Shown: in pieces, positions 45,716 through 61,370 of the stretch
How positions within the stretch are numbered: the stretch's first letter is position 1
Layout: every line of letters begins with the position of its first letter
DNA from: Aquabacterium sp.
Lineage (GTDB): Bacteria > Pseudomonadota > Gammaproteobacteria > Burkholderiales > Burkholderiaceae_C
Direction: 5' to 3'
Length of the DNA: 64,000 nt
Assembly (NCBI RefSeq): GCF_030652515.1
Contig: NZ_JAUSAR010000155.1
Span: 62,001 to 126,000, forward strand
Program-made: the position numbers and the translations under genes
Notes under the pieces: model-generated
What the model was told of the DNA's origin: nothing
The model's input: only the letters and a program-made list of their open reading frames with translations
The model's database searches: none

Positions 45716-46831
45716 ATGACCCGTTCCTGGAAGAGCCTGAGCGCCCTGAGCTGCGCCGTGCTGGCCGCGATGGCCGTGACCACGACGGCGCGCGCCGAGG
45801 AAGAAAAGATCCTCAACGTCTACAACTGGTCCAACTACATCGGGCCCGACACCATCGCCAACTTCGAGAAAGAGTTCGGCATCAAGGTGCGCTACGACAA
45901 CTTCGACAGCAACGAGGTGGTGCACGCCAAGCTGGTGGCCGGCAAGACGGGCTACGACGTGGTCATGCCCTCGTCCTACTGGGCCAAGATGCAGGCCGAT
46001 GGCGGCCTGCTGCAAAAGCTCGACAAATCCAAGCTGCCCAACTTGAAGAACCTGGACCCGGCCTTCCAGGCCCAACTGGCCAAGCTCGACCCGGGCAACC
46101 AGTACATGTCCAACTGGCTGTGGGGCTTTACCACGGTGGGCATCAATGTGGACAAGGTCAAGGCCGCGCTGGGTAGCACGCCCATGCCCGACAACGCCTG
46201 GGACCTGGTCTTCAAGCCCGAGTACATCAGCAAGCTCAAGAGCTGCGGCGTGTCGATCCTGGATGCCGCCAGCGAAGTGATCCCCGCCTCGCTGCATTAC
46301 ATGGGCAAGCCCGCCTACAGCAAGAACATCGCCGACTACCAGGCCGTGGGCCCCATGCTCAAGGCCATCCGCCCCTACGTGACGCTGTTCAGCTCGTCCG
46401 GCTACATCAACGACATGGCCAATGGTTCGATCTGCGTGGCGCTGGGCTGGTCGGGTGACATGAACATCGCCAGAGCCCGCGCCATCGAAGGCAAGACCGG
46501 CCAGAACATCCAGACCCTGATCCCCAAGATCGGCGGCGTGGTGTTCATGGACACCATGGTGATCCCGGTCGATGCACCGCACCCGGACAACGCGCACAAG
46601 TTCATCAACTACATCATGCGGCCCGAGGTGCATGCCGGCCTGACCAACAAGGTGTTTTACGCCAACCCCAACCTGGCCTCGCGCAAGCTGCTCAAGCCCG
46701 AGGTGGCCAATGACCCGGCGGTCTTCCCCTCCGAGTCGGACATGAAGAAGATGGCCATGCCCGAGGCCATCAACAACGATCTGCGTCGCCAGATGACGCG
46801 CATCTACACCTCCTTCAAGACCGGCCTGTGA
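45716..46831 (+). CDS. potF: Periplasmic putrescine-binding protein
   Basis: The 371-residue protein has a signal peptide ending near TTTARAEEEK and the PotD/PotF-type solute-binding fold: LNVYNWSNYIGPDTIANFEKE, KVRYDNFDSNE, YDVVMPSSYW, NQYMSNWLWGFTTVGINVDKV and CVALGWSGDMNIARAR. It captures putrescine (perhaps spermidine) and hands it to the PotGHI complex. It starts 4 bp after spuC, and its stop overlaps the potG GTG start. Confidence 0.95.
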   Translation: MTRSWKSLSALSCAVLAAMAVTTTARAEEEKILNVYNWSNYIGPDTIANFEKEFGIKVRYDNFDSNEVVHAKLVAGKTGYDVVMPSSYWAKMQADGGLLQKLDKSKLPNLKNLDPAFQAQLAKLDPGNQYMSNWLWGFTTVGINVDKVKAALGSTPMPDNAWDLVFKPEYISKLKSCGVSILDAASEVIPASLHYMGKPAYSKNIADYQAVGPMLKAIRPYVTLFSSSGYINDMANGSICVALGWSGDMNIARARAIEGKTGQNIQTLIPKIGGVVFMDTMVIPVDAPHPDNAHKFINYIMRPEVHAGLTNKVFYANPNLASRKLLKPEVANDPAVFPSESDMKKMAMPEAINNDLRRQMTRIYTSFKTGL

Positions 46832-47841
46832 CCGCGTTCCTGAGCATCCAGGAGGTCGTCAAGGACTTCGGCGCCAGCGCGGGCGGCGCGGCTTTCAGGG
46901 CGGTCGATCGCGTGAGCCTTGAGATCGCGCAGGGCGAGATCTTTGCCTTGCTCGGCTCCAGCGGCTGCGGCAAATCCACGCTGCTGCGCATGCTGGCGGG
47001 CTTTGAAACGCCCACCTCGGGCAGCATTCGCTTGAACGGGCAAGACCTGCTCAAGCTGCCGCCGCACGAGCGGCCGCTGAACATGATGTTCCAGTCCTAC
47101 GCGCTGTTCCCGCACCTGAGCGTGTGGGAGAACATCGCCTTTGGCCTGAAGCGTGAGCGCCTGCCCAAGGCGCAGATTGCCGCGCGCGTAGAGGCCATGC
47201 TCAAGCTGGTGCAACTGAGCCCCTTCGCCCAACGCAAGCCGCATCAGTTGTCGGGCGGACAGCAGCAGCGCGTGGCCCTGGCCCGCAGCCTGGCGCGCCA
47301 GCCCTCCTTGCTGTTGCTCGATGAGCCCCTGGGTGCTTTGGACAAGAAGCTGCGCGAGGAAACCCAGATCGAGCTGGTGCACATCCTCAAATCCGTGGGC
47401 GTGACCTGCGTGATGGTGACGCACGACCAGGAAGAGGCCATGACCATGGCCAGCCGCATCGCCGTGATGAGCGAAGGCCGCATCGTGCAGGTGGGCGAGC
47501 CGCGCGACCTGTACGAGAACCCGGCCACGCGCTTCGTGGCTGATTTCATCGGCAACGTCAACGTGTTGGATGGCAACGTGGCTGTGCGCCCTGAAAAGAT
47601 CCGCCTGTCGCGGCACTTGCCACAGGAGCAGACGCTGGGCGCCATCAATCAGGTACAAGGCCGCGTGCGCGACATCGCCTACTTTGGCAGCTACACGGTC
47701 TACCACCTGCAGTTGGCCAACGGCCAGACCTTGAAGGTGAGCCAGAGCAACACCGAGCGCCACCCCGACGACGCCTTGCGCCAGGACGATCAGGCCTGGG
47801 CCTGGTGGTCGCCCTCGGCCCAAGTGGTGCTCACACAGTAG
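46828..47841 (+). CDS. potG: Putrescine ABC transporter ATP-binding protein
   Basis: The 337-residue ATPase has Walker A GSSGCGKSTLLRMLAGFET (about residues 43-61), Q-loop MFQSYALFPHLSVWEN, signature LSGGQQQRVALARSLARQ, Walker B LLLLDEPLGALDKKLRE and switch histidine MVTHDQEEA. A C-terminal TOBE domain (about 250-337) completes the PotA/PotG plan. The GTG start overlaps the potF stop codon as GTGA. Confidence 0.96.
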   Translation: MTAFLSIQEVVKDFGASAGGAAFRAVDRVSLEIAQGEIFALLGSSGCGKSTLLRMLAGFETPTSGSIRLNGQDLLKLPPHERPLNMMFQSYALFPHLSVWENIAFGLKRERLPKAQIAARVEAMLKLVQLSPFAQRKPHQLSGGQQQRVALARSLARQPSLLLLDEPLGALDKKLREETQIELVHILKSVGVTCVMVTHDQEEAMTMASRIAVMSEGRIVQVGEPRDLYENPATRFVADFIGNVNVLDGNVAVRPEKIRLSRHLPQEQTLGAINQVQGRVRDIAYFGSYTVYHLQLANGQTLKVSQSNTERHPDDALRQDDQAWAWWSPSAQVVLTQ

Positions 47842-53393: not shown

Positions 53394-53633
53394 GTTGCCA
53401 CAAAAATGAACATCAACTACCATTAAGTAGCAACTGATGTGATCCTAAGTGGCAAACTCAAGGCTTGTCAATGGCCTTTTGGGGTTGGGCCCCTCAACCA
53501 GGGGGTGGTCACTGCAGGACGCCAACTTGCCCCGCAGCCACCATGGCGCCCCGATAGAATCCTCGCGATCACCCGAAATCAAACCCAGGTGTCCTGCGAC
53601 CATCGAGTAGTTTGGTGCCACTGAGGTGGCAAT
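53394..53633 (+). promoter_or_regulatory. Repeated GTGGCAA boxes upstream of the sensor operon
   Basis: Four related octamers precede the response-regulator gene: GTTGCCAC (53394-53401, inverse), GTAGCAAC (53427-53434), GTGGCAAA (53449-53456) and GTGGCAAT (53626-53633). The last is the right half of a hairpin, TGCCAC-TGAG-GTGGCA (53616-53631). Two extend into a shared GCAA(C)TGATG. They are candidate binding sites for the NarL-type regulator encoded just downstream. The rest of the 410-bp gap shows no gene. Confidence 0.45.
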
Positions 53634-53681
53634 GATGGCCCATCGATCCCGGGCACCGCCCTGACCATTCAACGAGCCTCC

Positions 53682-54323
53682 ATGACCCAGATCAGCGTGA
53701 TGATTGCCGACGACCACCCCTTGATCGTGGAGGGGCTGACCAGCGTCCTGGCCCGCCATGGCTTGACGGTGCTGGGGTCGGCCAGTGATGCCCCGGCGGT
53801 GGCCGACACTTTCATGACCTTGCAGCCTGATGTGCTGGTGCTGGACCTGCGTTTCGGCGATGGCGGCATCGGCGGACTGGACGTGTTGCAGGCGCTGCTC
53901 GCGCGGCAGGCCTCTGCCAAGGTCGTGATCTACACCCAGTTCGACCAGGACGAAGTCATCCGCGAGGCGTACAAGCGTGGCGCCAAGGCGTTCGTCACCA
54001 AGAACACCGACCCCTCCGAGCTGGCCGACACCATCGCCCGGGTGCACCAGGGTGAAACGGTGTTCATGCCCAGCATTGCCACGCGCCTGGCCCTGATGAG
54101 CGTGCGGGGCGACGAGTCACCGCTGGCCAAGCTGCAGCCCCGCGAGGTCGAGGTGTTCAAGCTCATGGCGCAAGGCCTCACCAACGTGGAGATCGCCGAG
54201 CGCATGAACCTGTCGCCCAAGACCATCAGCACCACCAGCCAGTCGATCAAGGATCACCTGGGCATCCACCGCCCGGCCGACATCACCTTGCTGGCCGTGC
54301 GGTGCGGACTCATCGAGCCCTGA
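53682..54323 (+). CDS. NarL/LuxR-type response regulator
   Basis: The 213-residue regulator has a receiver domain (MIADDHPLIVEGL; phospho-acceptor Asp55 in LVLDLRFGDGGIGG; Lys in AFVTKNTDPSELAD) and a C-terminal GerE helix-turn-helix (LQPREVEVFKLMAQGLTNVE, NLSPKTISTTSQSIKDHLG). A NarX-like kinase is encoded three genes downstream in the same tight operon and is the expected partner. The next gene starts 16 bp on. Unusual repeated boxes upstream may be its own targets. Confidence 0.94.
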   Translation: MTQISVMIADDHPLIVEGLTSVLARHGLTVLGSASDAPAVADTFMTLQPDVLVLDLRFGDGGIGGLDVLQALLARQASAKVVIYTQFDQDEVIREAYKRGAKAFVTKNTDPSELADTIARVHQGETVFMPSIATRLALMSVRGDESPLAKLQPREVEVFKLMAQGLTNVEIAERMNLSPKTISTTSQSIKDHLGIHRPADITLLAVRCGLIEP

Positions 54324-54339
54324 GTATTTCTCTCCTGTC

Positions 54340-56478
54340 ATGAATCCCAAGCAGTACCTTGTCCGGATGGCTTCGGCCATCATTGTTCTCACCGGCACGG
54401 CTCAGGCCCAGCCCATTGAACCCACCATCGACCTGAGCGATGCCAGTTACCCGGTGGTGATCACCCCCACGCGTTTGCGCCAGTCCCTGGCCGATGTGCC
54501 GGCCAGCGTCACCATCATCACCGCCGATACCCTGCGGCGCTATGGCATCAACCGGATCGAGGAGGCCTTGCGCATGGTGCCGGGCATGGCGGTGTCCAAG
54601 TCCACGGGCAACGAGTTCCGGATCAATTTTCATGGCACCAACGCCTTCAGCCCACGGCGGTTGAACGTGTTGATCGACGGGGTGTCGGCCTACATGCCGG
54701 CGTTCTCGCAGGTGCAGTGGAGTTTGCTGCCGGTGGTCCTGGACGATGTTGAACGCATCGAGGTGATCCGCGGGCCGGATTCGTCCTCCTATGGGCCCAA
54801 CTCGATGATGGCGGTGGTCAACATCCTGACCAAGCACCCCAAAGACGTCGAGCGCGGCCTGGTGTCGGTGACCACCGGATCGCAGGGCCTGTTGGAGGGC
54901 ACCGCCCGCTTGGCGACCACGTGGGGATCCACCAGCGTGAGGGCCACGGTCAGCTCGCGGCACGACCATGGCTATGACCGCAGCTCGTCCATCTCCAACG
55001 GCCGCGACGGCACCAGTTTGAACCGCTTCAACCTGCGGGCCCTGCAGGACCTGGGGGGTGGTTCGTCGCTGGACATGCAGGCCGCCTACGTGGGTGGCAC
55101 GCTGGAAAACGGCATCGGCGACAACTTCCAGGCAACACCCCCAGACCGCCAGCTCAACAGCACGGTGTTCAGCTCACGCTGGACCAAGTCGCTGTCATCG
55201 GTTCATGAGGTGCAGGTGAATGTGTCGCACGCCGCCACAACGGCCAAGCAACAGTGGCTGTCGTGCTGGCCCCAGGCGGCCTACTGGCCTGAGGTGTATG
55301 AGCTGTACCAGTCCAACCCGAGGCTGGTCAATGACATTCTGGCAGGGCGGCCCCCAACGGGAGGTTCGGCTCGCGACATGGAACTCCTGGGCATCATCAT
55401 CCCCCGCCTCATCAGCCAGGGAGGCTTGCAGGCCAGCCTGGCCATGACGACCTGCGGACAAGGCAACCAGGATGGCTCTGAATCACGCAGCCAGGTCGAG
55501 GTGCAGGACACTTTCGTGGTGTCCGACCAGTTGCGCTTTGTGGCGGGGCTGGGCTTGCGCCACCAACGGGCCAGCAGTGAAACTTACTTTGGCGGCGCGG
55601 TCAGCAACAATGTGCAGTGGGTGTTCGGGCACGCCGAGTACCGCCCGCTCGAGTGGTTGACCGCCAACGTGGGCGGCTATGGCGAGTCGAACTCGCTGAG
55701 CGGCAGTACCTTTGCGCCCAGGCTGGCCTTCAATGCGAGGCTGTCGGAGCATCAGACCATTCGGGCGGTGGTGTCCAAGGGCACACGCACCCCCGATCTG
55801 TTCGAGGAGCGCGCCAACTGGAGCTACACCGTGAGGGACCTGAGCGTCCCGATCGATGGCTCCACCACGGGGCGATTGTTCACCGCCGCCCAGGCCAAGT
55901 CGGGCCTGGCCAGCGAACAGATCTGGTCGCGCGAGCTGGGCTACCTGCTCATGCTGCGGCGCATCGGCCTGACCCTGGATGCGCGGGTGTTCGATGACCG
56001 CCTGAGTCGCCTGATCTCGGAGCGTCTGGTCGCCACCGATTTCTCGCCGGACAACTCGGGCTCGGTTCGACTGACGGGTGCCGAGCTTCAGCTCAACTGG
56101 GACCTTTCGGACAGGTGGTCAAGCTGGGCCAGCTATGGCTACCTGCTGAACCGCGAAGCGAGCCACATCGAAGAGACGGTGCAGTACTCGCGCCACAGCG
56201 GCGCCCTGGGCGTGAGCCTGGCCCTGTCAGACGCCTGGCGGACTTCGGTGGCCCACTACATGGCCAGCGGTGATGGCGTCCATGAGCTGCGGTACTCACG
56301 CACCGACCTGACGATCGCGCACGCGTTCGCGCTGGGCACGCAGCCGGGGTCGGCGTCGCTGACCTTGAGTTACCTGGGCACGCCTTCGGTGAACACTTAC
56401 CAGGACGGCCCCCGCTATTTCACGTCCACCTACAACCGCCAGTTCAGCATCCACGGCCAGGTCCGTGTGGCGTTCTAG
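54340..56478 (+). CDS. TonB-dependent outer-membrane receptor (BtuB-like)
   Basis: The 712-residue protein has a signal peptide (SAIIVLTGTAQAQ), a TonB-box-like YPVVITPTRLRQSLADVPAS at about residues 36-56, a plug domain (GINRIEEALRMVPGM, LIDGVSAYMP, VERIEVIRGPDSSSYGPN) and a C-terminal barrel ending RQFSIHGQVRVAF. The plug resembles the BtuB/cobalamin branch. Two cysteines around residues 308 and 371 may form a disulphide in an extracellular loop. Ligand is unknown. It sits in one operon with a response regulator, periplasmic protein and kinase, implying regulated uptake or ligand sensing. Confidence 0.94.
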   Translation: MNPKQYLVRMASAIIVLTGTAQAQPIEPTIDLSDASYPVVITPTRLRQSLADVPASVTIITADTLRRYGINRIEEALRMVPGMAVSKSTGNEFRINFHGTNAFSPRRLNVLIDGVSAYMPAFSQVQWSLLPVVLDDVERIEVIRGPDSSSYGPNSMMAVVNILTKHPKDVERGLVSVTTGSQGLLEGTARLATTWGSTSVRATVSSRHDHGYDRSSSISNGRDGTSLNRFNLRALQDLGGGSSLDMQAAYVGGTLENGIGDNFQATPPDRQLNSTVFSSRWTKSLSSVHEVQVNVSHAATTAKQQWLSCWPQAAYWPEVYELYQSNPRLVNDILAGRPPTGGSARDMELLGIIIPRLISQGGLQASLAMTTCGQGNQDGSESRSQVEVQDTFVVSDQLRFVAGLGLRHQRASSETYFGGAVSNNVQWVFGHAEYRPLEWLTANVGGYGESNSLSGSTFAPRLAFNARLSEHQTIRAVVSKGTRTPDLFEERANWSYTVRDLSVPIDGSTTGRLFTAAQAKSGLASEQIWSRELGYLLMLRRIGLTLDARVFDDRLSRLISERLVATDFSPDNSGSVRLTGAELQLNWDLSDRWSSWASYGYLLNREASHIEETVQYSRHSGALGVSLALSDAWRTSVAHYMASGDGVHELRYSRTDLTIAHAFALGTQPGSASLTLSYLGTPSVNTYQDGPRYFTSTYNRQFSIHGQVRVAF

Positions 56479-56494
56479 AGCTGGCGCTGACGCC

Positions 56495-57445
56495 GTGAAA
56501 ACCGATGCCAATCGCCGTCATTCGCTGCGCCTGCTGGCGGGCGTGGGTGTCGGCCATTGGTGCGCCGGGCCAGTCGCGAACGCGGCGGTGACCGCGTCGG
56601 GGTCTTCGCGCGAGTTGCGCATCATCACCAATCCGGAGGCGGCCTCGGCGCGGCAGATCCTGCAGGCCTTGAAGCTGCGCTATCCCGCGCTGGTGGCCGA
56701 TGCCGATCCCTTGGCTTTCGAAGCGCGCAAGACCCTCGCCATGACGGTGTCCATCGGCCCCATGGCTTTGCGGCGAGCCCTGGAGGTGGGCCTCAAAAGC
56801 CCGCTGGTGTCGGTGCTCACGTCCAGTCAGGCTTACCGGCAACTCGTGGCCCAGGACGCGGGGCGTGAGCGCCACACGGTCACCGCGATCTATGCGGAAG
56901 CCTCTCCGCTGGCCCAACTGCAATTGATCTCGGCGATCTTCGAGAGCCGTGTCACCGTCGGCGTGCTGCTGTCGGACGCCTCTGCCTACCTTGAGCGGCC
57001 CCTCAGGCAGGCCGCTGCCAGCGTGGGCCTGGACCTGCTGGTGGAGTACCTGTCGCCTTCGGTCGATGTGGCGCGTTCACTCACTCGCTTGCGGGGCGCG
57101 CAAGTGCTGCTGGCGGTGCCGGACAGCACGCTCTACACCCCCGACACGCTCAGGGCCTTGCTGGAATCGACCTACCGCCGTGGCATGCCGGTGGTGGGCT
57201 TCTCGTCGGCCACGGTGGCGGCGGGGACCTTGGCCACGGCTTACTGTGCCGTGGATGACGTGGTGGCCGACCTGGTCGAGTTGATCGAGGGCGCGGGGGT
57301 GTTGGGCTCCGCGCCCTTGCCTGAGCCGCGCTTTCCGCAGTACTGGCGGGTCGTCGTCAATGAAAGCGTGGCGCGCTCGCTGGGCGTGCCCATGAGTGAC
57401 AAGGTTCGCCAGATGGGCAAACAAGCACCAGGGCGGCCCCGATGA
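56495..57445 (+). CDS. Periplasmic ABC_sub_bind-type solute-binding protein, orphan
   Basis: The protein of about 316 residues carries an N-terminal export signal with a twin-arginine-like NRRHSLRLLAGVGVG. The body matches the ABC_sub_bind (PF04392) / periplasmic-binding fold: LRIITNPEAASARQIL, TVSIGPMALRRAL, ESRVTVGVLLSDASAYLERP and LLAVPDSTLYTPDTLRALL. No cognate permease or ATPase is encoded nearby. It overlaps the histidine kinase gene by ATGA, so it probably presents a ligand to that kinase. The GTG at 56495 is chosen; GTG 56465 is in frame but inside the receptor gene. Confidence 0.82.
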   Translation: MKTDANRRHSLRLLAGVGVGHWCAGPVANAAVTASGSSRELRIITNPEAASARQILQALKLRYPALVADADPLAFEARKTLAMTVSIGPMALRRALEVGLKSPLVSVLTSSQAYRQLVAQDAGRERHTVTAIYAEASPLAQLQLISAIFESRVTVGVLLSDASAYLERPLRQAAASVGLDLLVEYLSPSVDVARSLTRLRGAQVLLAVPDSTLYTPDTLRALLESTYRRGMPVVGFSSATVAAGTLATAYCAVDDVVADLVELIEGAGVLGSAPLPEPRFPQYWRVVVNESVARSLGVPMSDKVRQMGKQAPGRPR

Positions 57446-58899
57446 TGGGCCGCTTCCTGAGCCACTGGGGCATTGCCACCCGGCTGCTGGTCATCGCCGT
57501 GCTGCCGGCCAGCATCATGTTCGTGTCGGTGACCGCCACGCTGTCTGGCCTGGCCCAGCGCGATGTGCGCCGCGACGTGGCCGCGCGTGGCCAACTCGTC
57601 GCGACGGCCTTGGCGCAAAGCAGCCAGTACGGCCTCGTGTCGGGCAACACGGCTTACCTGCGCACGACCCTGCGTCACATGCTCGAGGCTGATCCCAGCA
57701 TCGCGTGCATTGCCATCGCCGATGCGGTGGCCCGGCCGGTGGTGTCCGACTGCCAGGTGTCCAAGCCTACCGAGGTTGAATCCTTCGAGGTGCCGATCCG
57801 CATCGAGTCGCTGCCGCAGGTCGATCAGTTCGAACCCGTCCCGACGCCGTCCGGGGAGGGCGCCTGGCGCACGGTGGGGAGTGTGCGCGTCACCATGTCG
57901 CCGGCGCCCATCTTCGAATCCAAGCGCCGGGCGCTGCTGGTGGCCTTCGCCCTGGTCTTGGCGGCCGCCGTGGTGAGTTGCCTGATCGGGCTTCGCCTGG
58001 CCCGGCGTTTGCGCGACATCCTGGGCTCGGTCATGTCCGCCCTGCGCGACATTCGCCAGGGCCGTTTCGATGTGCAGCTGGCCACCGACCACGAGGGCGA
58101 ACTGGGTGAGCTGCAAAGGACCATCGTGCAGATGGCCAGCACCCTGGATGCCTCGCGGCACGACCTGGAGCAGCAGGTCGCCAAGCGCACGCAGCAGTTG
58201 CAGGAAGCGGTGGACCTGGCCCGCCAGGCCGATGCTGACAAGCGCCGCCTCATTGTGCGCAGCAATGCCCTGGTCGAAGAAGAGCGGCGACGCATCGCGC
58301 TGGACATCCACGACCACCTGGGCGCAGCCTTGATCTCGGTTCGGCTGGAGGCCAGCGCCCTGGTGGCGCGGGCGCGCGCGTGCGGTGATGCGGAGATGCA
58401 GGGCGATGCGGCCCGGATCGCGGCCGCCGCGCAGTCGATCTATGCCACCACGCGCGACATCGTCAAGCGCCTGCGCCCGGAGGTCATCGACACCTTGGGC
58501 CTGGCTGGGGCGGTGGAAGAGCTGGTGCGCCATGCCGATCAAGTCCACCCCGCAGCGCGCTTCACCTTCCAGGTGGACCCTGGCTTTCCCGATGTGCGTG
58601 GCGAGCTGGCGATGCCGGCCTACCGCGTGGCGCAGGAAGCGCTCAACAACATCGCCAAGCATTCGGACGCGACGCTGACCACGGTGACCTTGAGCGTGCT
58701 GCCAGAGACGGGGCACCTGCGCATGGTGATCCAGGACAATGGCCGGGGCTTTGACACCCGGTCGCCGCGCAGCACCGGCATCGGCCTGATCGGCATGCGC
58801 GAACGCGTGGCGGCCGTGGGGGGCGAGTTGCTCGTCTCATCCACGCCAGGGCAGGGCACCACCGTGTGCGTGACGCTGCCCTTGCCCGCCGGGCAGTGA
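57442..58899 (+). CDS. NarX/DesK-type membrane sensor histidine kinase
   Basis: The 485-residue kinase has two transmembrane helices (about residues 14-34 and 174-195) flanking a periplasmic domain of about 135 residues. A HAMP linker (RRLRDILGSVMSALRDIRQG) and a coiled coil follow. The HisKA_3 domain has phospho-acceptor His290 in IALDIHDHLGAALISVRLE, and the HATPase has NNIAKHSDAT, QDNGRGFD and GIGLIGMRERVAAVGG. HisKA_3 kinases pair with NarL-type regulators, as encoded at the head of this operon. The periplasmic domain could read the state of the neighbouring solute-binding protein. Confidence 0.94.
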   Translation: MMGRFLSHWGIATRLLVIAVLPASIMFVSVTATLSGLAQRDVRRDVAARGQLVATALAQSSQYGLVSGNTAYLRTTLRHMLEADPSIACIAIADAVARPVVSDCQVSKPTEVESFEVPIRIESLPQVDQFEPVPTPSGEGAWRTVGSVRVTMSPAPIFESKRRALLVAFALVLAAAVVSCLIGLRLARRLRDILGSVMSALRDIRQGRFDVQLATDHEGELGELQRTIVQMASTLDASRHDLEQQVAKRTQQLQEAVDLARQADADKRRLIVRSNALVEEERRRIALDIHDHLGAALISVRLEASALVARARACGDAEMQGDAARIAAAAQSIYATTRDIVKRLRPEVIDTLGLAGAVEELVRHADQVHPAARFTFQVDPGFPDVRGELAMPAYRVAQEALNNIAKHSDATLTTVTLSVLPETGHLRMVIQDNGRGFDTRSPRSTGIGLIGMRERVAAVGGELLVSSTPGQGTTVCVTLPLPAGQ

Positions 58900-58985: not shown

Positions 58986-61370
58986 ATGTTGAGCTGGATA
59001 TTCAAGAAGAAAAAAGCAAGCCCGCCCGTGATCGCCGCCCTGCCTGCGGCCAGTGACGAAGCGGCCGCGTCGGCCCGGCAGGCGGCCGCCAATGTGGCCT
59101 CGGTGTGGTCGGGGCGCCTGCACCGTGCTTTGGGGGATGACGCCGCCCTGCTGATCCTGGCCAAGGAGGCGCCGACGGCCGACCTCAAGCTGGCCGCCGT
59201 GCAGGCCTTGTCCACCGAGGCGGGGTTGAAATCGGCCGAGCGCGAGTTCCGCACCCACGATCGCCGGGTGCACCAATTGGCCCGGCAGCGCCATGCCCAT
59301 GCCAAGGCCACGCGGGAGGTGGCCGAGCGCGCCACTGCCTTGATCAGCAATGCCGCTGTTTTGCTGGATGCCCCGGTGATCCCGGTCAACCGCCTGGTCG
59401 AGTTCGACCGGGGCTGGCAGGCGCTGGACGCCAGCTTGCTGTCGGCTGCCCACCAGGCCGAGTACTCGGCTTTGGCGGGGCAGTTGTCGGCCGCCATGCA
59501 GGCGCAAAGCGACCAGCGCGCGGCGGCCTTGGCGGCGCAGGCCGAGGCGGCTGCGGCTGCTGAAGCGGCAGCCCTGGCTCAAGCGCAAGCGCTGGAGGCG
59601 CAGGCATTGGCGGCGTTGGCCCAGGAGGCACTGACGCGCCCGGCCGTTTCGCCATCCGATGAGGCCGAGACCACGACCACGCCGCCCAAAGCACCCAAGG
59701 CGCCCACGGCCGAGCACAGCGCTTTGATTGAATCCGCTTTGCAGCAAGCCGAAGCCGCGCTGCTGGATGGCCACCTGAAGCAGGTGCAAAGCCACCTGAT
59801 GAACCTGGACCGCTTGTCCACCGAGGGCATGGGCCCCGCGCACCGCGCGCGCCTTCAGGCCGTGCAAGCCGAAGCGGGCCGCATGAAGGGCTGGCAGCAA
59901 TGGAGCGGCGGGCTGGCCCGAGACGACCTGGTCCTGGAGGCCGAAGCCTTGGCCAAAGCCACAACGGTGGCCACCGAGACGGGCGAGCCCAAGCTTCAAG
60001 CCCGGGCGCAGGCCGAGGCCATCGACGATTTGCGCCAGCGCTGGAAAGAGCTTGACCGCCTGGCGGCCGCCACCAGCCAGCCGCTGTGGGAGCGCTTTGA
60101 CGCGGCCCTTCAAACTGCCTACCTGCCGGTGGCCGCCCACCTCGCGCAGTTGGAGGCCGATCGGCAGGCCAACCTGGCATTGCGCGGTGGCTTGTTGGAC
60201 ACGCTGGACGCCACGCCCTTGGAAGCCAACACCGACACCGCTGCCGAGTCCTCACCCTGGAAAGACCTGGTCCGCGCGCTGGACCAGTTCCACCAGGCCT
60301 GGCGCAAGTTGGGCCCGGTGGAGCACACCGTGCCACGCAAGGCGCAGAAGGCCTTGCTGGCCCGTTTGGCGGCCAGTGTGGCGCGCCTGGAGGTGCCGCT
60401 TCAAGCCGCCCGCCGCGTGGCGCAAACCGAGCGCGAAGCCCTGGTCGCGCGGGCCAAGGCGCTCACCGAAACTGGCCGACTGCACCCGGCCGAGCAATTG
60501 GCCCAGGTGCGCGAGTTGCAGGCCGAGTGGCAAGCCCATGCGCGCGGCTTGCCTTTGGCGCGCCCCCTGGAGGCCTCGCTGTGGGACCAGTTCAAGGCCG
60601 CGACCGATGCCGTCTATGCCCAACGTGAAGCCGCCTTCAGTGCCCGCGATGAAGCCCTGCAGGCCAACCTGGCGGCCCGTGTGAGCTTGATCGAGCGCCT
60701 GGAAGCCATCGCACCCGACAGCCCGGTGGTCGACATCACGAACACCTTGAAGCAGCTGGACGCGGCCTGGCGCCAAGCGGGCGAAGCGCCCCGGGCACAA
60801 GCCGCCGCGCTGGAGTCGAGGTATCGGGCTGCACGCGCTGGCGCGCAGGCCATCGTGGCCGACAGTGCTCAGCGCGTGTGGCAGGCCACCTGCGACACCT
60901 TGCACGCCAAGCTCATGCTGTGCGAAGCGCTGGAGTCTGTTCAGGCCTTGGCCGATGCCGATGTGCGCAACCGTTGGGCGGCCTTGCCGGTGTTGCCACC
61001 CTTGTGGGAGCAAGCCCTGACCCAGCGCATGGACCGCATGGCCGCTGCTGATGGCGCGCCATCAAGTGCAGGCTTGAGTGCTGACAACACCGCAGCAGAC
61101 GAGGCCTTGCTGCAACTTGAAGCCGCGCTGGACCTGCCCTCGCCACCCGAGCATCAGGCCAGCCGCCGTGACCTCAAACTGCGTGCGTTGAAAGCCGCGC
61201 TGGAAGGTGGTCAGGTCCGCGCGGGTGCTGCGCCGAGCGTTGATCAGATGACGGCCCAGGTGGTCGGCTTGCCTCGCCTCAGTGCCCCGCAACGCCTGCG
61301 GCTGCACAACCTGATCACGGGGCTGCGCACTGTCAAGCCGGAGGCTTCCAGTTCCCCATCAGCGCGGTGA
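58986..61370 (+). CDS. DUF349 repeat protein
   Basis: The 794-residue cytoplasmic protein starts MLSWIFKKKKASPP and is almost wholly helical. It contains repeated DUF349-like segments with the Trp pattern (DDLRQRWKELDRL; LDQFHQAWRKLGPVEH; LWDQFKAATDAVYAQREAAF; LKQLDAAWRQAGEA). An Ala/Gln-rich coiled coil lies at about residues 165-220. DUF349 proteins are widespread in beta- and gammaproteobacteria and have no settled function. It starts 86 bp after the kinase and ends 38 bp inside the convergent phosphodiesterase gene. Confidence 0.85.
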   Translation: MLSWIFKKKKASPPVIAALPAASDEAAASARQAAANVASVWSGRLHRALGDDAALLILAKEAPTADLKLAAVQALSTEAGLKSAEREFRTHDRRVHQLARQRHAHAKATREVAERATALISNAAVLLDAPVIPVNRLVEFDRGWQALDASLLSAAHQAEYSALAGQLSAAMQAQSDQRAAALAAQAEAAAAAEAAALAQAQALEAQALAALAQEALTRPAVSPSDEAETTTTPPKAPKAPTAEHSALIESALQQAEAALLDGHLKQVQSHLMNLDRLSTEGMGPAHRARLQAVQAEAGRMKGWQQWSGGLARDDLVLEAEALAKATTVATETGEPKLQARAQAEAIDDLRQRWKELDRLAAATSQPLWERFDAALQTAYLPVAAHLAQLEADRQANLALRGGLLDTLDATPLEANTDTAAESSPWKDLVRALDQFHQAWRKLGPVEHTVPRKAQKALLARLAASVARLEVPLQAARRVAQTEREALVARAKALTETGRLHPAEQLAQVRELQAEWQAHARGLPLARPLEASLWDQFKAATDAVYAQREAAFSARDEALQANLAARVSLIERLEAIAPDSPVVDITNTLKQLDAAWRQAGEAPRAQAAALESRYRAARAGAQAIVADSAQRVWQATCDTLHAKLMLCEALESVQALADADVRNRWAALPVLPPLWEQALTQRMDRMAAADGAPSSAGLSADNTAADEALLQLEAALDLPSPPEHQASRRDLKLRALKAALEGGQVRAGAAPSVDQMTAQVVGLPRLSAPQRLRLHNLITGLRTVKPEASSSPSAR

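Follow-up and report, generated by a model that had tools for sequence, protein, structure and literature searches.

A recurrent unit of TonB-dependent receptor, solute-binding-type protein and membrane sensor in Aquabacterium and its relatives, probably a sensory module

Introduction

What does a solute-binding protein do when its gene lies between those of a TonB-dependent receptor and a histidine kinase, with no importer encoded alongside? The question is raised by an operon of Aquabacterium sp. within a stretch of 64,000 nucleotides, referred to below as the window (contig NZ_JAUSAR010000155.1, positions 62,001 to 126,000). Its four genes follow one another on the plus strand and encode a NarL-type response regulator (213 aa, 53682–54323), a TonB-dependent receptor (712 aa, 54340–56478), an orphan solute-binding-type protein (SBP; 316 aa, 56495–57445), and a membrane sensor histidine kinase (485 aa, 57442–58899). 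A first-pass annotation had described one strand with spacings of 16 bp, 16 bp, and a 4-bp overlap, which the open reading frame (ORF) list and coordinates bear out, the overlap being ATGA; as it also stated, no ABC permease or ATPase is found among the ORFs neighbouring the operon. Its reading of the operon as a sensory system rather than a transporter is partly supported by the conserved gene order and by searches in which no matching importer was seen. We lean towards a signal relay, in which the receptor would import, the SBP would report to the kinase, and the regulator, acting on a palindrome, would set the receptor level.

Pfam searches identified a receiver (Response_reg, PF00072, E 1.2e-20) and a LuxR-type helix–turn–helix domain (GerE, PF00196, E 2.1e-12) in the regulator, a plug (PF07715, E 1.3e-22) and a TonB-dependent barrel (PF00593, E 9.5e-17) in the receptor, and HAMP, HisKA_3, and HATPase_c domains in the kinase. 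The receptor has the plug and beta-barrel expected of its family, and matched neither an STN signalling domain nor any other Pfam family at E ≤ 1. A HisKA_3 and HATPase_c kinase with a linked receiver–GerE regulator has the composition of a two-component pair. The SBP carries an N-terminal signal-like stretch and starts with GTG; its longest ORF, from 56465, would overlap the receptor gene.

Conservation of the gene unit

Among 299 genomes of the same family, the SBP was found in 36, its own genome included, and 38 loci were examined: 37 from the other 35 genomes plus the window (loci, genomes, and contigs are numbered with L, G, and C). The SBP is preceded by a same-strand receptor gene in 34 of the 38 loci and followed by a homologous sensor in 37; one locus, L040, stops at a contig end. 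A second scan, of named genomes, used receptor alignment and took the best 80 of 576 loci, which include Leptothrix, Rubrivivax, Pseudomonas, Alcanivorax, and others. SBP and sensor follow the receptor in 77 of these 80; no SBP was found in L217, which stops just past the receptor, L222, or L226. These 80 loci are not independent, because the selection favours loci close to the query and many of them come from Pseudomonas. Among the matches listed, the closest named counterpart of the window receptor is in a Leptothrix sp. metagenome-assembled genome (MAG), at 77% identity.

The arrangement recurs far more often than expected by chance, and the gene order, whose absence from relatives the first-pass annotation had named as grounds for abandoning its reading, is strongly conserved. 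ABC partners are rarely in view. Within 5.5 kb of the SBP, an ABC-ATPase signature occurs in one of the 38 loci (L069, opposite strand; some loci stop at contig ends), and one of the best 80 of 576, L161, has an ORF with such a signature just upstream of the receptor. Sequence comparison shows receptor, SBP, and sensor kept together as a core unit across the relatives sampled, and an ABC partner is hardly ever visible beside them.

Some loci depart from the common layout. In L069–L071, ORFs matching the sensor profile flank the SBP on both sides, and no receptor was found there. Receptor and SBP share a single 982-aa frame in L050 (3–2951); since the SBP start and its signal-like stretch persist, an indel is likelier than a true fusion. 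An Oleibacter marinus MAG, among the best 80 of 576, has a tandem pair of SBP genes between receptor and sensor (L213, 8169–10036). The Aquabacterium genome itself holds a further SBP module, L074 (contig C105, 5927–11254), where a second PF04392 protein is followed by a hybrid kinase and a TonB-dependent receptor gene lies on the opposite strand.

Fold and conserved residues of the binding protein

The window SBP has no Pfam match at E ≤ 1 and no NCBIfam match at E ≤ 0.1, and does not reach the cut-off of PF04392, the ABC_sub_bind family to which it had been assigned. That label stands through relatives and fold, not through a Pfam match of the protein itself: at E ≤ 0.01, PF04392 matches 32 of 37 aligned SBP rows, but not that of the window. 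An AlphaFold2 model built from the 37-row alignment (mean pLDDT 89.2) has the two-lobe fold, and its top Foldseek matches in the Protein Data Bank, 3lft, 3lkv, and 6hnj (E 4.5e-13 to 3.2e-12, TM-score by query 0.53–0.63), are the PF04392 proteins TrpX, VC_1101, and CD0873. A solute-binding fold is thus well supported for the modelled protein, and membership in ABC_sub_bind would hold through intermediates only.

The PF04392 binding proteins include CD0873 (Tyr), VC_1101 (Phe), and SP1069/TrpX (Trp), according to PMC6816091, from which residue positions were mapped by hand. None of the 37 aligned SBPs has the Asp of the importer motif [ST]DP. At the DN motif, the Asp is kept in 35 of 37 and its Asn in one; the Tyr/Gln specificity position holds Tyr in one protein and Gln in none. 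The family retains this conserved Asp (35/37) and an Asn (37/37). Because the specificity residues are lost, an aromatic amino acid is an unlikely ligand.

Two other ligands were considered and set aside. NF053590, the TOL_0244 family, is the NCBIfam model nearest to the window receptor, which scores 163.9 bits, far under the cut-off of 645; an alkane ligand is therefore not claimed. The genes upstream of the operon include those of a PuuC-like dehydrogenase, which scores under its NCBIfam cut-off, and of a permease that looks PotI-like by eye; both have counterparts upstream in the Leptothrix locus L147. These hint at a polyamine ligand, against which the same-genus locus L037 has other-strand genes in the roughly 3.5 kb covered upstream. 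Twin-arginine-like starts occur in some SBPs only.

The sensor domain and its YfiR-linked relatives

The periplasmic domain of the kinase spans about residues 32–163 (57535–57930). A model of residues 1–275 (pLDDT 90.2, pTM 0.65) shows long helices around a small alpha/beta domain. Only two Foldseek matches pass E 0.001: an integrative WalK–YycH model (9a5d, E 9.1e-7) and a LapD-type output domain (4u64, E 2.0e-4, TM-score 0.73 by target length). The profile of the sensor group matches histidine kinase chain 5o7j (E 6.4e-13), which we take to be GacS. In Pfam, the window kinase has no CHASE8 (PF17152) match and reaches sCache_4 at E 0.14 only.

A search of 398 genomes with NF053590 gave matches in 118 at E ≤ 1e-30, 23 of them over the cut-off, and 40 loci were fetched. 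In 14 of the 40, a gene of about 165–205 aa lies between receptor and sensor; four others (L125, L142, L145, and L146) carry an SBP in its place. All eight small genes checked belong to PF13689 (YfiR/HmsC-like), and that of L108, from the Aquabacterium genome, matches solved YfiR chains. This genome has two receptor–YfiR–hybrid kinase modules (L107, 2450–7001; L108, 3643–8722); its receptors on contigs C40 (878 bits, over the NF053590 cut-off) and C91 (502 bits, below it) sit in YfiR–sensor modules.

By hhalign, 27 sensors linked to SBPs and 13 linked to YfiR are homologous in their periplasmic domains (probability 96.3, E 1.9e-9; reversed control 0.4). The same comparison between the SBP and the small genes (15 genes, seven without a Pfam check) gave probabilities of 0.1–0.3, similar to the reversed control (0.1), and YfiR was rejected as a one-lobe relative of the SBP; nor does the window SBP match PF13689, the family that marks YfiR–YfiN modules. 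Different adaptors without detectable kinship therefore seem, from these profile comparisons, to serve one sensor family.

This sibling module suggests an alternative to the relay, in which the SBP acts as a repressor, like YfiR, and senses the state of the envelope (redox, cell wall) with no imported ligand, and the receptor is a mere target or an unrelated supplier. The homologous sensor domains agree with it, as do the loss of the aromatic ligand residues and the inconstancy of the receptor in distant loci. LapD-type output domains work by protein contact, and the kinase sensor is placed near one of them. Such a repressor would not, however, call for a two-lobe binding fold with its Asp and Asn conserved, or for a receptor nearly always beside the SBP in the nearer relatives, and we regard it as rather unlikely.

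ABC transporter genes and the importer alternatives

A sequence-signature search of ORFs longer than 180 aa found a single ABC ATPase in the window, at 46828–47841, far from the operon. In the flanks of the SBP loci, 143 proteins were listed and 128 scanned, which gave 118 families. The 25 commonest of these include neither an ABC ATPase nor a permease family; rare ABC families may still occur among the other 93. PF12974, the phosphonate-type periplasmic binding proteins, was matched by six of the 128.

PF04392 proteins at large served as a control. PF04392 matched at E ≤ 1e-10 in 58 of 200 genomes of the phylum, and 40 of about 90 listed places were hand-picked, 20 with strong and 20 with weaker matches. 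A same-strand ABC-ATPase signature lies within about 2.2 kb in 13 of the 20 strong loci; another, L274, has a kinase in place of the ATPase. A separate same-strand ATPase gene was found in none of the 20 weaker loci (the signature lies inside the sensor ORF in L278 and L292), and a sensor or kinase is just downstream in 17; six of the weaker rows are positional, because the ORF chosen by script is unmatched by the SBP profile. The first-pass annotation had held that a dedicated permease elsewhere would undo its reading. One canonical PF04392-linked permease, used as the single query in the Aquabacterium genome, gave one weak match (E 1.4e-4, 26% identity), so that, as far as tested, no such permease has come to light, and the cognate permease and ATPase that mark an importer SBP were not found among the ORFs beside the operon.

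These results bear on a further explanation, that receptor and SBP are uptake parts, the kinase senses the ligand alone, and the genes are grouped by a shared regulon. PAS/Cache-like folds such as that of the periplasmic domain often bind small molecules, and the profile match to kinase chain 5o7j agrees with this explanation. Against it stand the lack of ABC transporter families among the 25 commonest in the flanks, the single weak match to the permease query in the genome, and the sibling module, in which YfiR rather than an uptake protein is encoded in the middle; we regard it as improbable. An importer that shares a permease and ATPase encoded elsewhere, as the ATPases adjoining the strong PF04392 loci might suggest, is very improbable given the weak permease match, the missing [ST]DP Asp, and the weaker loci, which have sensors and no separate ATPase gene.

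Outputs of the sensor

Pfam domains in the 36 third-gene ORFs were HAMP (28), HATPase_c (20), sCache_4 (20), HisKA (15), receiver (15), GGDEF (14), HisKA_3 (5), and EAL (1); the wrong frame was taken in at least two loci (L055, L057), where sensor and GGDEF motif lie on other ORFs. Output classes were assigned by sequence motif, except for four that were set manually on other grounds. By this classification, all five HisKA_3 loci and the truncated L040 have a regulator gene within 4.5 kb, as do 10 of 14 hybrid kinase loci and one of 17 GGDEF loci; the one unclassed locus has none. The core therefore appears with three predicted cytoplasmic outputs: a NarL-paired HisKA_3 kinase, as in the window, a hybrid kinase, and GGDEF.

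On a tree of 58 SBPs, which omitted short and over-long rows, L050, L069–L071, L074, and most Pseudomonas near-copies, the output label requires three changes, compared with a mean of 21.9 after shuffling. The SBPs linked to HisKA_3 kinases form a single branch (support 97/88). These few changes indicate that the SBP stays with its module and that the output changes rarely.

Downstream of the window kinase lies a DUF349 gene (58986–61370). In Leptothrix L147, an 844-aa GGDEF gene directly follows the kinase, as if the DUF349 gene had been inserted in the window or lost in L147.

A candidate operator upstream of the regulator

The first-pass annotation let the operon begin at 53394, which is 288 bp ahead of the first gene; the intergenic stretch included in this way holds a palindrome. 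It spans 53410–53440 (no strand assigned) and is an imperfect inverted repeat whose core, 53417–53433 (CTACCATTAAGTAGCAA), would be a degenerate copy of a candidate operator; window and Leptothrix L147 share a footprint upstream of the regulator. The pattern TTGCYA-N5-TRGCAA is perfect in L147, L037, L204, and L041, 208–319 bp before the regulator ORF start used, and none of 300 shuffles was as good. The window core, 265 bp before the regulator start, has two mismatches (19 of 300 shuffles as good). Elsewhere, mismatches number two in L039 (16 shuffles as good), three in L038 (61) and L183 (67), and five in L040 (300). Other spacers from 0 to 12 gave no match in the nine upstream regions.

Perfect copies thus occur in four of nine loci of the HisKA_3/NarL type and in four of 297 loci overall, none of another type; because these loci were already known when the pattern was drawn up, they do not test it independently. 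Across the eight genomes scanned, G159, G685, and G027 have one copy each, at the operon; G687 has three, one of them at the place of L204; the Aquabacterium genome and G271 have one each, elsewhere than the operon; and G098 and G686 have none. A reversed-pattern control matched once each in G098 and G687, twice in G271, and in no other of the eight genomes. The sole perfect copy in the Aquabacterium genome (contig C39, L306, position 4749) lies between a 964-aa, secreted-looking ORF on the minus strand and a 796-aa ORF on the plus strand, and is possibly a second target or a chance occurrence. Taken together, the sequence evidence for the site is good for a part of the HisKA_3 branch but weak for the window itself. 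The earlier proposal that the regulator tunes the receptor fits the perfect upstream palindromes of same-type loci and is less well served by the degenerate window copy.

The proposed relay

The unit is probably a real and widespread sensory module. For its ligand, the SBP–kinase contact, and the sign of control, we infer the following. The receptor, to judge by its family, would carry a ligand that is scarce or bulky into the periplasm. The orphan SBP, filling the place held by YfiR in the sibling module, would bind the imported ligand and alter how it contacts the kinase's periplasmic domain. Given the HisKA_3 domain and the consistent linkage, the kinase would phosphorylate the NarL-type regulator, which may bind the palindrome upstream of the operon and so set the receptor level, possibly as the feed-forward loop of the first-pass annotation. 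YfiR represses YfiN, and by this parallel release from repression is at least as likely as activation.

Several observations weigh against this relay. The receptor is not beside the SBP in L069–L071, the gene order in L125 is SBP–sensor–receptor, and a receptor is directly upstream in just five of the 20 weaker PF04392 loci (by receptor profile, about 4.5 kb upstream in four more). Pfam does not recognize the divergent window SBP, and with its aromatic-specificity residues gone the binding pocket might be vestigial. Because YfiR and the SBP are not detectably homologous, the YfiR parallel is carried by the sensor and not by the adaptor. Finally, the window palindrome is degenerate, L038, L183, and L040 lack a good copy, and the perfect copy of the Aquabacterium genome lies elsewhere.

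For Pseudomonadota, it is an even proposition that the relay belongs to a general class, in which a TonB-dependent receptor is linked to one sensor family by a periplasmic adaptor that can be either YfiR or an SBP of ABC_sub_bind type, and the sensor has exchangeable outputs (NarL-paired kinase, hybrid kinase, or c-di-GMP synthesis). A binding protein of import type would, in the SBP branch, have turned into a dedicated reporter of receptor cargo. If true, this would give a role to many receptors, sensors, and "orphan" binding proteins that are so far unassigned in Pseudomonas, Alcanivorax, and Burkholderiales. Since YfiR and SBP seem to have been exchanged on one sensor family, what the sensor domain reads can be tested, and the palindrome offers a handle on the regulator.

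Comparison with known systems

No description of a receptor–SBP–sensor module was found in the titles and abstract openings retrieved by searches of open-licence PMC papers, which does not imply its absence in print. Known parts, namely a TonB-dependent receptor, an SBP-fed sensor, and a YfiN-like sensor, are joined here in a combination that these titles and abstract openings did not describe. The closest parallel is YfiR–YfiN (PF13689 and CHASE8, PF17152), in which the gene of a periplasmic protein likewise lies just before a HAMP-linked sensor of varying output; the periplasmic sensor domain is homologous, and sibling YfiR loci have a TonB-dependent receptor gene just upstream. The periplasmic partner in the window differs in being a two-lobe SBP that is not detectably homologous to YfiR.

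LuxPQ, TorT–TorS, and NspS–MbaA are SBP-dependent sensors, and here too a soluble binding protein would pass its signal to a membrane sensor. In contrast to them, a TonB-dependent receptor is part of the window unit; their SBPs presumably belong to a different family from that of the window. With CD0873, VC_1101, and SP1069/TrpX, the window SBP shares fold and profile relationship, but no ABC partner was found for it and the [ST]DP Asp is absent from its family. TOL_0244/OmpS are alkane-linked TonB-dependent receptors, according to PMC6304351; NF053590 is the model nearest to the window receptor, which remains far from this family at 163.9 against 645 bits.

In FecA-type signalling, an outer-membrane receptor is linked to gene regulation, as it would be in the window operon. 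Here, however, the receptor has no STN match and none of the four genes encodes a sigma or anti-sigma factor. Most of what is known of signalling by TonB-dependent receptors concerns sigma/anti-sigma pairs; if the relay holds true, it would represent a second, modular route from such receptors, ending in kinases or c-di-GMP.

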